Shown piece by piece: positions 685-31,670 of a stretch of DNA of 53,771 nt. The notes below the pieces were generated by a model that saw nothing but the letters and a program-made list of their open reading frames with translations, did no database searches and was not told where the DNA came from. The DNA comes from Campylobacterota bacterium (GTDB taxonomy: Bacteria; Campylobacterota; Campylobacteria; Campylobacterales; Sulfurovaceae). Made by a program: the position numbers and the translations under genes. The stretch's first letter is position 1, and each line of letters starts with the position of its first letter. The DNA lies in contig QKDN01000029.1 of the NCBI GenBank assembly GCA_003252535.1, forward strand, positions 1-53,771. Direction: 5' to 3'.

Positions 685-1524
685 ATGCATTATCATATTT
701 ACAATCAAAACATCAGAATCCCCGCTATGATCTACGGTACGGCGTGGAAGAAGGATCGCACTGCCGATCTGGTCGAGGAAGCGGTACTCAGCGGCTTCCG
801 TGGGATCGATACGGCGTGTCAGCCGCGTCACTATCAGGAATATCTCGTAGGTGAGGGAATAGCGCGAGCCTGTGAGAAGGGGATAGCGCGGGAGGAGCTC
901 TATCTCCAGACCAAGTTCACACCCATCGACGGGCAGGATCGCTCCAATATGCCCTACCTCGAGAGCGACCCGCTGGAGGTGCAGATAGCCAAATCCTTCG
1001 AGACTTCCAAACGCAACCTCCGTACAGACTTTATAGACTCCTATATCCTCCACTCCCCTATCTTCCCAGCCTCGGCGCTACTCAAGGGATGGGAGACGAT
1101 GAGCGGCTTTTACCACGACAAGGAAGTGGGCCAGCTCGGGATCAGCAACTGCTACGATCTCGATGTGCTCAAGTATCTCTACGAGAGGGTGGAGGTGAAA
1201 CCATCCGTCGTCCAGAACAGGTTTTATGCCCAGAGCGGATACGACAGGGAGCTGCGGGAGTGGTGCCGTGAGCGCGGGATCGTCTACCAGAGCTTCTGGT
1301 CGCTGACTGCCAATATCCACATCCTCGAAAAACCGATCTTCCTCTCGCTCTCGAGAAAATACGGCAGAAGCATCCCCGTGATCTTCTACCGATTCCTCAG
1401 CCACCTCGGTATCATCCCGCTCAACGGCACTACGACGGTAGAGCATATGAGAGAGGATGTGAAGTTCGACAGTTTCGAGCTGAACGAGGATGAGGTAGCG
1501 GTGATCGAGGGGATGCTCAGGTAG
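685..1524 (+). CDS. Aldo/keto reductase family protein
   Basis: This predicted NAD(P)H-dependent oxidoreductase has the AKR TIM-barrel fold and acts on carbonyl substrates in the cytoplasm. The 279-residue length is normal for the family. The catalytic tetrad is visible: Asp42 (RGIDTA), Tyr50 (RHYQ), Lys77 (LQTKF) and His123 (ILHSP). The barrel strand LGISNCYD and the nicotinamide-stacking region VVQNRFYAQ are also recognisable. The start is the ATG at 685; an earlier ATG at 636 is in another frame. The ribosome binding site is weak. Its 3' end overlaps the convergent methyltransferase gene by 8 bp. The substrate cannot be told from sequence, and a 2,5-diketogluconate-reductase-like label would be a guess. 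Confidence 0.85.
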   Translation: MHYHIYNQNIRIPAMIYGTAWKKDRTADLVEEAVLSGFRGIDTACQPRHYQEYLVGEGIARACEKGIAREELYLQTKFTPIDGQDRSNMPYLESDPLEVQIAKSFETSKRNLRTDFIDSYILHSPIFPASALLKGWETMSGFYHDKEVGQLGISNCYDLDVLKYLYERVEVKPSVVQNRFYAQSGYDRELREWCRERGIVYQSFWSLTANIHILEKPIFLSLSRKYGRSIPVIFYRFLSHLGIIPLNGTTTVEHMREDVKFDSFELNEDEVAVIEGMLR

Positions 1525-1834
1525 TGAAGTCGTAGAGTACTTTCGGAAGGTCGGCTACCTTTCTATTCTTGACGATGATCCCTTCCTCTTCGAGGAGCTG
1601 CTGCTTGATGACGCTCCCCTCTGCGGCTTCGTCGGTGGTGTAGTGGCCTAGCGAGCCGTCGCTTTTGATGACCCGGTGGCAGGGGACGACGATGGGGTTG
1701 GGATTGGTCGCCATCGCCCTGCCGACCGCCCGGTAGGCTTTGGTGCCCAGCGCTTCGGCTATGAGCTTGTAGGTCGTGACCCTGCCGCGGGGGATCTGCC
1801 TGAGGAGTGCGTAGCATCTTTCATTGAAGTTCAT
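1517..1834 (-). CDS. ogt: Methylated-DNA--protein-cysteine methyltransferase (single-domain)
   Basis: This suicide DNA-repair protein moves the alkyl group from O6-alkylguanine to its own cysteine. The acceptor motif PCHRV places the cysteine at residue 52, so it is an active methyltransferase and not an alkyltransferase-like protein, where Trp replaces Cys. The DNA-binding helix-turn-helix with its arginine finger (AYRAVGRAMATNP) precedes it. At 105 residues only the catalytic C-terminal domain is present, with no Ada-type N-terminal domain. The start overlaps the end of mutY by 14 bp, so it is the last gene of the minus-strand operon. Pairing with mutY suggests a small base-repair module. 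Confidence 0.9.
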   Translation of the reverse strand: MNFNERCYALLRQIPRGRVTTYKLIAEALGTKAYRAVGRAMATNPNPIVVPCHRVIKSDGSLGHYTTDEAAEGSVIKQQLLEEEGIIVKNRKVADLPKVLYDFTT

Positions 1835-28844: not shown

Positions 28845-29648
28845 ATGATGAAGGGGTACAGGGTGCTTGGATGGGTCGATACGCTTGGTGACCGGACGAT
28901 ACGGTGGAGTGCAGGAGTGCGTGATGGTATGCGCTTTACCCTCGTGTGTTTCGCACATCTCATCCGTCCGTCGAGCTACAACCCGGCGATGCGTACCATC
29001 ATCATCAAGCAGATATATTTTACCGCAGTCGAGATCATTCCGCTATTCCTTATGATGGCCGTGATCTTCGGATCGGTCATCATCGGCGCGGTCATAGCGC
29101 TGGCTGCTTCTTATGATCTTGAGGAGCATATCGGTTCGATCATCATCACCTTTGCCATCGATGAGTTCGCACCGTTTTTTACCGCGCTGCTGATCGCACT
29201 CCGTTCGGGTGCGGCGATCAATACGGAGATAGCGGTCATGAAGGTCAACAGGGAGCTCAGGACGCTCGATGCATACGGTATCGATATCATCGACTATCTT
29301 TTCCTCCCCCGCATCATCGGGGGGATGATCTCGATCACGCTCCTTTCAATTGTTTTTGCTATTATTATGATATGCAGCGGATACATTTTCACCTTTTTCT
29401 ATATGGATATGTATCTCTTTACCTACAAGCGACTTCTGGTAGATGCCGTTGGGATGGCGGACCTGGCGATACTGTTCGGGAAGAGCCTGCTTTTCGGTTT
29501 TGTGACGATCACGATCCCCATCTACAGCGGGCTGAAGACGATGGAAGGCTACAGTGCCATCCCTATTTCTGTCCTTCAGGGGATGGTGAAGCTTTTTATA
29601 GCGCTATTTTTTATCGAGGTGTCATCATTGCAGCTTCAGTTACTATAA
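28845..29648 (+). CDS. mlaE: MlaE-family ABC transporter permease
   Basis: Membrane subunit of an MCE-type system that moves phospholipids between the two membranes. The 267-residue protein has about five to six hydrophobic segments. The family motif region FAIDEFAPFFTALLIALRSGAAINTEIAVMKVN contains the EQ-loop-like coupling helix sequence. It starts ATGATG at 28845. The gene order mlaE-(ATPase)-mlaD-lipoprotein matches, as I recall, Campylobacter iamB-iamA-mlaD-Cj1649. The end overlaps the following ATPase-like ORF. Confidence 0.88.
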   Translation: MMKGYRVLGWVDTLGDRTIRWSAGVRDGMRFTLVCFAHLIRPSSYNPAMRTIIIKQIYFTAVEIIPLFLMMAVIFGSVIIGAVIALAASYDLEEHIGSIIITFAIDEFAPFFTALLIALRSGAAINTEIAVMKVNRELRTLDAYGIDIIDYLFLPRIIGGMISITLLSIVFAIIMICSGYIFTFFYMDMYLFTYKRLLVDAVGMADLAILFGKSLLFGFVTITIPIYSGLKTMEGYSAIPISVLQGMVKLFIALFFIEVSSLQLQLL

Positions 29649-30100
29649 GGATATTCGGCGACTACGACGAGCTTGTTGCTTTCGCGGAGGCAGGCGGTGA
29701 TGCTGCGATAGTGAGCAGCGATACGCCGCTCATCTCCAATCTCGATATCTGCGAGAACATCTCGCTTATCCGCGAGGTGCACCACAGGCTCCCCATCATG
29801 GCAGCCAGAGTACAGGCGGCAGAGCAGCTTGAGAGGATAGGGCTGATACGGATCTGTGAGAAAAGGCCCACGGAGTGTACGCCGTTCGAGATATTCTATG
29901 CAATGGTGATACGGGCTATGATGAGCGATTTTTCCAGGATATATATACTCACCCCCTACAGCTTCATCAGGAGACTTAAAGAGTTCTCGGAGGTGATCGG
30001 GACGATCGGACGGCTGGAGTACACGCAGGAGATATTCGTGCTCGATACGAACAAGAACCTGTATCACTATGAGGAGTGCCAATGCAATATCATTCGATGA
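29627..30100 (+). CDS. Degenerate ABC ATPase-like subunit of the Mla system, no Walker A
   Basis: At the place where the ATPase gene should be, a frame of about 157 codons resembles only the second half of MlaF. A Q-loop-like region (IVSSDTPLISNLDICENISL) is followed by RVQAAEQLERIGL, and then by ECTPFEIFYAMVIRAMM, where the LSGG signature should stand, and RIYILTPYSF, where Walker B should be. There is no Walker A and no catalytic Glu. No ATG, GTG or TTG start is available near the 5' end. The best start is ATT at 29627, five bases after GAGGTG, overlapping the end of mlaE. It overlaps mlaD, so the frame is kept open by selection and not obviously decayed. Confidence 0.7.
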   Translation: MAASVTIRIFGDYDELVAFAEAGGDAAIVSSDTPLISNLDICENISLIREVHHRLPIMAARVQAAEQLERIGLIRICEKRPTECTPFEIFYAMVIRAMMSDFSRIYILTPYSFIRRLKEFSEVIGTIGRLEYTQEIFVLDTNKNLYHYEECQCNIIR

Positions 30101-31017
30101 AAAGAGCCGTCGGTCTGGCGATGGTCGCACTGGTGCTGCTCGTACTCTTCTCTCTTGTGTTCATTATCAGCGAGAAACGCTATTTCGAACCGAGGGTGAG
30201 CTACTACTTCATCGTCGATGATGCAAGCGAGCTGAGCGTAGGAACACCGCTGAACTATTCGGGACTGGCCGTAGGGATGATAGACACGATAGAACTTACC
30301 GATACCGGCAGGGCAAGGATGAGCTTTTCCCTCACAGAGGCCAACCGGAAATGGATCACCGAAGAGACCGTCCTGACGGTCAAAAGACCCCTTATCGGTT
30401 CGACCTATATCGAGATCAGCCCCATCGGCAAAGCAGCGCTCCTCTCTCCCGAAAGACCGATCGAGGTGAAGATGAGTGACGATATCAACGATATCATCGA
30501 GCGTCTGGAGCCGGTGGTCAAGAAAGCGACGACCGTGCTCGATAACTTCGAGACGATCACCAATTACCTCGTCAGCGAGGATTCGGAGCTTGTGAGCGGG
30601 CTTAAGAACTTCAACGCGATCACCGGGAAGCTGGCTCAAAGCGACTCTTTCCTCACATCCCTCACTGGTGATGCGAACGCTACGAAGAACTTCATCAATG
30701 CGATCAACCGCCTCTCCGTTATCCTTGACAATATCGAGAAAATATCACGGGACCTGAGCCAAATGAGCGGGACTTTCGAGCAGAAGATCATCGACCCAGG
30801 CTCACAGACGATCAGGGATATCGATGCCATTATGAAAGATATACGCTCCAAACTGACTATCCTCCACGGTCTTGTCGAGGAGATCGGAGGATCGAAACGG
30901 GAATTCAGACTGATCAAACGGGAGATATCGGTAGGGATACAGAAAACGAACAAGATCATCAACAAGATTGACAGAACCCTCGGGACGACGCCCAAGAGCA
31001 AAGTGGAGCTGCCATGA
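30082..31017 (+). CDS. mlaD: MCE/MlaD domain protein
   Basis: The periplasmic lipid-binding subunit anchored in the inner membrane. A membrane segment (about residues 9-29, VGLAMVALVLLVLFSLVFII) is followed by one MCE domain (about 38-118, with VGTPLNYSGLAVGMI and PLIGSTYIEI) and a long helical C-terminus (about 130-311) that should form the tube. The ATG at 30082 has GAGGAG five bases upstream. A GTG at 30076 and an ATG at 30097 overlapping the upstream stop are alternatives. Its stop overlaps the lipoprotein gene. Confidence 0.9.
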   Translation: MQYHSMKRAVGLAMVALVLLVLFSLVFIISEKRYFEPRVSYYFIVDDASELSVGTPLNYSGLAVGMIDTIELTDTGRARMSFSLTEANRKWITEETVLTVKRPLIGSTYIEISPIGKAALLSPERPIEVKMSDDINDIIERLEPVVKKATTVLDNFETITNYLVSEDSELVSGLKNFNAITGKLAQSDSFLTSLTGDANATKNFINAINRLSVILDNIEKISRDLSQMSGTFEQKIIDPGSQTIRDIDAIMKDIRSKLTILHGLVEEIGGSKREFRLIKREISVGIQKTNKIINKIDRTLGTTPKSKVELP

Positions 31018-31670
31018 TGGATACGAAATATCTTCTTTGTGTACTGGCAGCTGCTCTGATGATCGGGGGGTGTGCCTCCAAAACTCCTCCGAACCAGTGG
31101 CAGATCGAGAGTGCGGAGTCATTTGATTCCTATACCCAAAGTTATCTCAAAGGCGAAGAAGTCATGGCCCAAAGCGAACTCTCGGGAGCGATAGAAGAGG
31201 CGAAAAGGAGTGCCGATATCGAACAGCTCGAACGGATCTACCTGGGGGCATGCGCTCTGGAGCATTCGGTAGGGGAGGGGAGATACTGCACCGAATACCG
31301 CAGGCTCTCCGCTATCCGTACCTACAGAGCGCTCGAAGCCTATGCATCGCTTCTCGAAGGAGCTCTGGGAACTGCTGACATAGAGCATCTTCCTCCCCAG
31401 TATCAGACCTTTGCACAATACAGGCTGCGCGGAGATGTATCGGGTGCGTTCAACGAGCTCATTTCGATGAAGAGGGTGACTTCGCAGCTGATCGCAGCCT
31501 CGCTGATCAAAGATCGTCTCAACGATACCCAGAGGGACTATATCCTCGGTCTTGCATCAAAATACGGTTACAAAAAAAGTGTTCTGTTCTGGCTGCGTGA
31601 GACTGTAAGAAAAGGGGATGGCGAAAGGAAAGCCGGTGCGCTGGCAAGGATCAAAGTGATAGGGAGTTAG
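31014..31670 (+). CDS. Mla-operon lipoprotein
   Basis: The lipobox MIGGC ends the signal sequence (LLCVLAAALMIGGC). The 218-residue protein is mostly helical, with weak TPR/solenoid character (IEEAKRSADIEQLERIYLGAC and QLIAASLIKDRLN). Its start (ATGATG at 31014) overlaps mlaD. Lipoproteins are found at the same place in the Campylobacter operon, so it may be an auxiliary component on the outer membrane, comparable in role to MlaA or MlaC, but that is inference. A hairpin terminator follows. Confidence 0.75.
   Translation: MMDTKYLLCVLAAALMIGGCASKTPPNQWQIESAESFDSYTQSYLKGEEVMAQSELSGAIEEAKRSADIEQLERIYLGACALEHSVGEGRYCTEYRRLSAIRTYRALEAYASLLEGALGTADIEHLPPQYQTFAQYRLRGDVSGAFNELISMKRVTSQLIAASLIKDRLNDTQRDYILGLASKYGYKKSVLFWLRETVRKGDGERKAGALARIKVIGS

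Follow-up and report, generated by a model that had tools for sequence, protein, structure and literature searches.

A truncated, AUU-initiated remnant of an ABC ATPase in a second Mla-type operon of Campylobacterota

Analysis of the window (the whole stretch of DNA examined, 53,771 nucleotides) revealed an operon, mlaE2-F*-mlaD2-lipoprotein, that probably encodes a second Mla-type lipid-transport complex, in which the ATPase subunit has decayed to a conserved non-hydrolytic subunit, termed F*; we put the probability of this reading at about 0.6. Comparison with its homologues strongly supports F* as a real subunit that lacks the ATPase motifs and starts at an ATT codon. The sequences establish the presence and conservation of this ATPase remnant, its dead motifs and its start signal; its docking, independence from ATP and translational control are proposed on that basis. 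The role of ATP as a driver of Mla-type lipid transport and the direction of that transport are still debated. The ATP question becomes directly testable in this family, whose members keep the permease and the MCE protein with an ATPase that is dead or missing.

Organization of the mlaE2-F*-mlaD2 operon

The operon comprises four genes on the forward strand, in the order mlaE2, F*, mlaD2 and a lipoprotein gene. The first gene, mlaE2 (28845-29648), encodes a 267-residue permease that belongs to the MlaE family, with a PF02405 score of 149.6 bits (cut-off 22.5), and was compared across 65 distinct MlaE2 loci. The window MlaE2 lacks the N-terminal STAS-like domain, which is present in the canonical MlaE of the same genome, and its coupling-helix segment, EIAVMKVNRELRTLDAYGIDIIDYLFLPR, carries the coupling-helix motif. 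The second gene, F* (29627-30100 including the stop codon, coding to 30097), specifies a 157-residue truncated and catalytically dead ABC nucleotide-binding domain. It begins with an AUU start codon (29627-29629), found as ATT at 56 of 57 homologous start sites, and is preceded by a Shine-Dalgarno sequence, GAGGTG (29616-29621), that lies inside mlaE2 and leaves 7 nt between GAGG and ATT. The two genes overlap by 22 nt (29627-29648); of 38 loci compared, 37 have an mlaE2 stop that begins 19 nt past the A of ATT.

The third gene, mlaD2 (30082-31017), encodes an MCE-domain protein (PF02470, 38.6 bits) and is kept downstream of F* in relatives. Its likely start is the ATG at 30082 behind GAGGAG (30071-30076), with GTG 30076 and ATG 30097 (as ATGA) as alternatives; the F* stop falls 3' of every candidate. 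The lipoprotein gene (31014-31670), last in the operon and in the same place in relatives, encodes a protein of ~218 residues from an unnamed family, for which a Pfam search gave no match. As in Mla-type operons, an MCE-domain MlaD is encoded together with an MlaE-family permease; a motif check found no catalytically competent MlaF within mlaE2-F*-mlaD2. The first-pass annotation had called mlaE and mlaD intact, in agreement with the presence of both genes and their PF02405 and PF02470 matches, and had called the ATPase frame open and coupled at both ends, which is borne out by the overlap with mlaE2 and the stop beyond all mlaD2 start candidates. It had also described the ATPase gene as half the usual length; the gene is indeed shortened, but "half" is an overstatement, as its 157 residues are ~60% of the 264 of canonical MlaF.

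F* retains the ABC fold without the ATPase motifs

F* starts at the strand that precedes the P-loop position, and the P-loop itself (Walker A, GxxGxGK[ST]) is present in none of the 56 F* homologues. The Q-loop glutamine is replaced by serine in 50 of 56 members, and the LSGGQ signature is gone from the family, the aligned columns reading C/L-S/N/T-x-x-E in most members. At Walker B, the aspartate is mostly V/L/I and the glutamate mostly T/R/S/K, whereas the switch histidine is aspartate in 51 of 56 members; the switch position corresponds to F* residue 140 in the window (30044-30046). The absence of Walker A, the LSGG signature and the Walker B glutamate, first noticed in the window protein, recurs among the homologues, in most of them for the Walker B residue. 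With the residues present, F* cannot form a working ATP site, and the aspartate at the switch-histidine position suggests a new structural role. Among the 56 members, P34, L39, N44 and R96 are invariant, and I1, L35, I45, I48, L68, A97, P110 and Y148 are at least 95% conserved. The conserved cluster at residues 34-48 comes after the Q-loop, in the region where nucleotide-binding domains contact coupling helices.

The AlphaFold2 model of F*, built from 26 sequences, has a pLDDT of 88.6 and a pTM of 0.86. Structural similarity search revealed that the model aligns along its entire length with ABC nucleotide-binding domains, with Z-scores of 14.9 for PH0203 and 14.8 for MalK, and resembles MlaF (PDB 6xbd) with a Z-score of 13.7 over MlaF residues 32-217; Foldseek also returned ABC matches. 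A sequence search of the PDB with the F* family profile found MacB (E-value 1.4e-8) and LptB (4.7e-8). Pfam and NCBIfam scans of the window F* protein gave no match. In the comparison with ABC_tran (PF00005) that the first-pass annotation had proposed, the curated cut-off was not reached (best E-value 0.024), with matches in 2 of 26 members and none in the window protein. A search with the F* profile finds ordinary ABC ATPases, which shows the ABC ancestry of F*. Taken together, the sequence matches and the predicted structure indicate that F* shares both ancestry and fold with ABC ATPases.

Compared to MlaF (E. coli, PDB 6xbd and 6xgy; C. jejuni mlaEFD), F* is likewise encoded between the permease and MCE genes, as in Campylobacterota, and retains the fold over MlaF residues 32-217, the ENI helix, the signature-helix Arg-Ala and the Walker B proline. 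It differs in lacking the P-loop, the Q-loop glutamine, LSGGQ, the Walker B Asp/Glu, the switch histidine, the N-terminal strands and the C-terminal extension, in having 157 rather than ~265 residues, and in its AUU start. Degenerate catalytic motifs in one nucleotide-binding domain are also found in the heterodimeric ABC transporters TAP, TM287/288 and MRP1, which have one degenerate site; however, these keep a working second site, whereas no competent site is encoded in the F* operon. A longer form is found in the relative L063, where the gene (912-1559, minus strand) starts with ATT and encodes 216 residues with a longer N-terminus and no P-loop. Its structure model is confident only over the shared core, the extra N-terminus being of low confidence. 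The L063 form resembles a halfway stage between a full-length ATPase and F*.

Distribution and conservation of F*

A protein search of 99 relatives identified six F* homologues of 26-51% identity. Each lies next to an mlaE homologue, and in most cases mlaD and the lipoprotein gene come after it. Searched with a profile, 399 genomes of the order yielded 26 strong members in addition to L063, and below a gap came ordinary ABC ATPases at E-values of 1e-8 to 1e-11. A scan of named genomes added Sulfurovum, Sulfurimonas, Helicobacteraceae and Campylobacteraceae metagenome assemblies as carriers. The final set has 65 distinct MlaE2 loci, 56 of them with F*; in a further one of the 65, L156, F* is cut by a contig end. 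F* is found in five families of the order (f1, f9, f16, f20 and f21 of the search), and all 56 distinct F* loci adjoin the same MlaE paralogue, MlaE2. A scan of contigs with a narrow sequence pattern found F* relatives only in records labelled as Campylobacterota taxa or as unclassified "bacterium". One contig, L086, is titled "Helicobacter cetorum" and apparently comes from a sulfidic-cave metagenome, so that its label looks doubtful. In the MlaE2 tree, the Sulfurovum-like branch of the window nests among Sulfurimonas sequences, a placement that makes horizontal transfer of the mlaE2-F* operon likely.

Between close pairs, F* shows a dN/dS of 0.05-0.25, a mark of purifying selection; the comparison of the same ORF among relatives that had been proposed at the outset was extended to 56 distinct loci. 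A decaying pseudogene or an assembly artefact would be in keeping with the loss of every ATPase motif from F* and with the damage to mlaE2 at a few loci (L090, L092, L148 and L151). Such an origin is nevertheless refuted in practice by the conservation data, its probability being next to nil: the low dN/dS, the invariant residues and the near-constant length recur at 56 loci from independent assemblies. The two outcomes that the first-pass annotation had named as fatal to its reading were both sought. A frameshift joining the F* frame to a complete ATPase was looked for and not found, and none of the MlaE2 loci examined has an intact Walker A adjoining MlaE2. By its pattern of conservation, F* is a protein-coding gene, neither a frameshift nor a pseudogene.

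Co-loss of F* and the MlaE2 coupling helix

In the solved MlaFEDB complexes, MlaE contacts MlaF through its coupling helix (PMC7790496; PMC8241846). That of MlaE2 still resembles the coupling helix of canonical MlaE, and its pattern is kept in all 56 F*-bearing loci. At six loci without F* (L089, L090, L091, L146, L149 and L150), mlaD directly follows mlaE2, and the coupling-helix segment shows erosion or shortening that differs among them. None of the five readable mlaE2 ends at these loci has GAGG at the start signal, which reads GAAGTG, GAAATG, GAATTT (twice) or GAGTTA, and an in-frame TAA breaks the mlaE2 of L090. Two more loci were left out of this count, L151 because a contig end cuts it and L092 because it has decayed. 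In L092 mlaE2 is fused in frame to the lipoprotein end, in L151 it is truncated near the contig end, and in L148 it ends near residue 179, with F* intact.

Five F*-less loci were placed on the MlaE2 tree and form one clade within the F* clade (SH-aLRT 93, long branches), which indicates that F* was lost secondarily, probably once. In the light of this tree, the co-loss of F* and the coupling helix is best described as a single event, after which various lesions arose, and not as many independent events. The retention of the helix with F* and its erosion without F* are read as evidence that F* is what the MlaE2 coupling helix binds. We propose that F* sits where MlaF would, gripping the coupling helices of MlaE2 through a surface composed of the Q-loop and the helical subdomain, the most conserved part of F*, and that it would hold or stabilise the permease without ATP hydrolysis.

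The genome of the window also encodes a complete canonical mlaEFD on contig C13, with the Walker A sequence GESGAGKS; the search for another MlaF that had been suggested thus found one with an intact motif. MlaE2 might accordingly be powered in trans by canonical MlaF, as MceG serves its transporters, with F* acting as an adaptor, as one half of a mixed dimer or as a brake. Canonical MlaE was present in every F*-bearing genome checked (ten), canonical MlaF could in principle dock onto the similar coupling helix of MlaE2, and one ATPase common to Mce1 and Mce4 is known (PMC9947336). We nevertheless consider powering in trans unlikely. The fold and surface of F* would occupy the coupling helix itself, and the helix is eroded where F* is lost, even though canonical MlaF would continue to depend on it. 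Pairing F* with MlaF in a mixed dimer would leave no competent ATP site, because F* has neither a P-loop of its own nor the signature to complete the site of MlaF, and MlaE2 lacks the STAS-like domain of canonical MlaE. The first-pass annotation had offered two roles for the subunit. The adaptor or structural role is favoured, because the coupling helix is kept with F* and eroded without it; the borrowed ATPase is less likely, even though a canonical mlaEFD is present. As with MceG and Mce1/Mce4 of mycobacteria, an MCE-type operon lacks an active ATPase gene of its own while an active homologue is encoded elsewhere in the genome; unlike in those systems, the operon itself carries a dead homologue, whose loss accompanies loss of the coupling helix.

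Returning to F* as a non-hydrolytic subunit, it can make no ATP site of its own and can complete none with MlaF, and the simplest inference is that the complex does not use ATP. ATP independence is thus suggested by the dead F* together with the F*-less relatives. Passage of lipids along MlaE2-MlaD2 would in that case be passive or powered by something other than ATP. In the classical system, MlaD is reported to pass lipid to MlaC spontaneously, with no need for ATP (PMC10212509). The tree suggests a series that runs from a dead ATPase with a longer N-terminus (L063), through the truncated F* of most loci, to the loss of both F* and the coupling helix.

A conserved AUU start signal within the overlap

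AUU is a very rare start codon. The window F* frame contains no ATG, GTG or TTG before codon 28, the first NTG being a GTG, and the earlier choice of the ATT at 29627, with GAGGTG before it at 29616-29621, as the first plausible start therefore stands. GAGG is found at -11 to -8 in all 56 F* loci. The sole start site without ATT is that of L157, which has CTT there and ATG one codon later. Across the family AUU is conserved, the Shine-Dalgarno sequence is well placed and there is no conserved NTG alternative. In the mlaE2 frame, the overlap element reads GAG-GTG-NNA-TCA-TTR. GAG, TCA and TTR are invariant in the first 38 sequences, where codon usage predicts ~0.51, 0.16 and 0.36, respectively, and the five codons of the element are the most synonymously constrained of mlaE2 among 173 testable columns. 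They remain at the top of 144 columns in 14 sequences thinned to <62% identity, and are five of the top six among 198 columns in a 55-sequence set, the intruder being column 257, which also lies in the overlap.

At 13 of the 56 F* loci, an in-frame stop four codons before the start excludes ribosome entry from upstream in the F* frame. Codons 9-39 have a dN/dS of 0.18, without such a signal in the other two frames, which indicates that translation starts close to ATT rather than at a Met further downstream. The L063 locus, which branches close to the root of the MlaE2 tree, has ATT too, so the codon is old in the F* family. The canonical mlaF genes of the order start with ATG, once with TTG, and the apparent start of infC in the window genome is TTG, hence it offers no local AUU precedent.

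As F* lies in the -1 frame of mlaE2 and the two frames overlap, F* might instead be made only as an MlaE2 fusion, via programmed -1 frameshifting near the mlaE2 end; Shine-Dalgarno-like sequences can stimulate frameshifting elsewhere. This origin is highly improbable in view of the upstream in-frame stop in 13 loci. Moreover, no conserved slippery heptamer was seen in the mlaE2/F* overlaps, and the conserved element has the spacing of a Shine-Dalgarno sequence and a start codon, with ATG substituting for ATT in L157.

Independent initiation at ATT could still be free of any regulatory purpose, if AUU were simply the only usable near-cognate start compatible with the Ser-Leu of the overlapping mlaE2; an ancestral ATGA stop-start junction that changed to ATTA perhaps fixed it. 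We rate this explanation a little below an even chance. Any NTG in the F* frame within the overlap turns the mlaE2 codon into TGN (Cys, Trp or stop), and in 54 of 56 loci the base after ATT is A, so that ATG would create TGA and remove the last 7 residues of MlaE2. However, L157 shows that an escape to ATG is feasible if MlaE2 accepts one Trp. In the window and L033 the sequence is ATTG, so that a change to ATG would merely replace Leu by Trp; both nevertheless keep ATT. So do three loci with an altered residue at the overlapping position of MlaE2 (L152, Ser to Leu; L153, Ser to Ile; L156, Leu to Phe).

Regulatory AUU starts are known from infC and pcnB of E. coli (PMC9410913), and non-canonical starts with a strong, extended Shine-Dalgarno sequence from cvfC1 of S. 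aureus (PMC13009471) and sigR of Streptomyces, which has a GTC start with AGGAGGTG (PMC5472188). F* resembles these AUU/GUC-initiated genes in the conservation of its non-canonical start codon, but differs in lying inside an operon and overlapping the upstream gene; the literature on these four starts describes none in a transporter gene. By analogy with infC, pcnB and sigR, it is plausible that the ATT start limits F* expression. Discrimination against AUU by initiation factors, possibly IF3, would probably keep F* synthesis low or regulated, and AUU may also persist since no NTG fits in the overlap without giving MlaE2 a Cys, a Trp or a premature stop. We tentatively propose, at somewhat less than even odds, a lipid permease in a stepwise move to ATP independence, in which the ATPase remnant is held down via AUU and MlaE2-MlaD2 is kept as a conduit. 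Because F* starts at AUU almost without exception, in several bacterial families, gene finders that accept only ATG, GTG and TTG would miss or truncate this transporter subunit.

Two other starts were considered and rejected. A Met at codon 40 is common in Sulfurimonas-type members; however, codons 9-39 are under purifying selection in the F* frame only, and the window protein lacks this Met. The codon before ATT (29624-29626 in the window) is ATC in most of the 56 loci (A in 51, C in 53), but as a start it varies (GTC, CTC, AAT) and lies only 4 nt from GAGG. The conservation of this ATC exceeds what a Shine-Dalgarno sequence and a start codon need.
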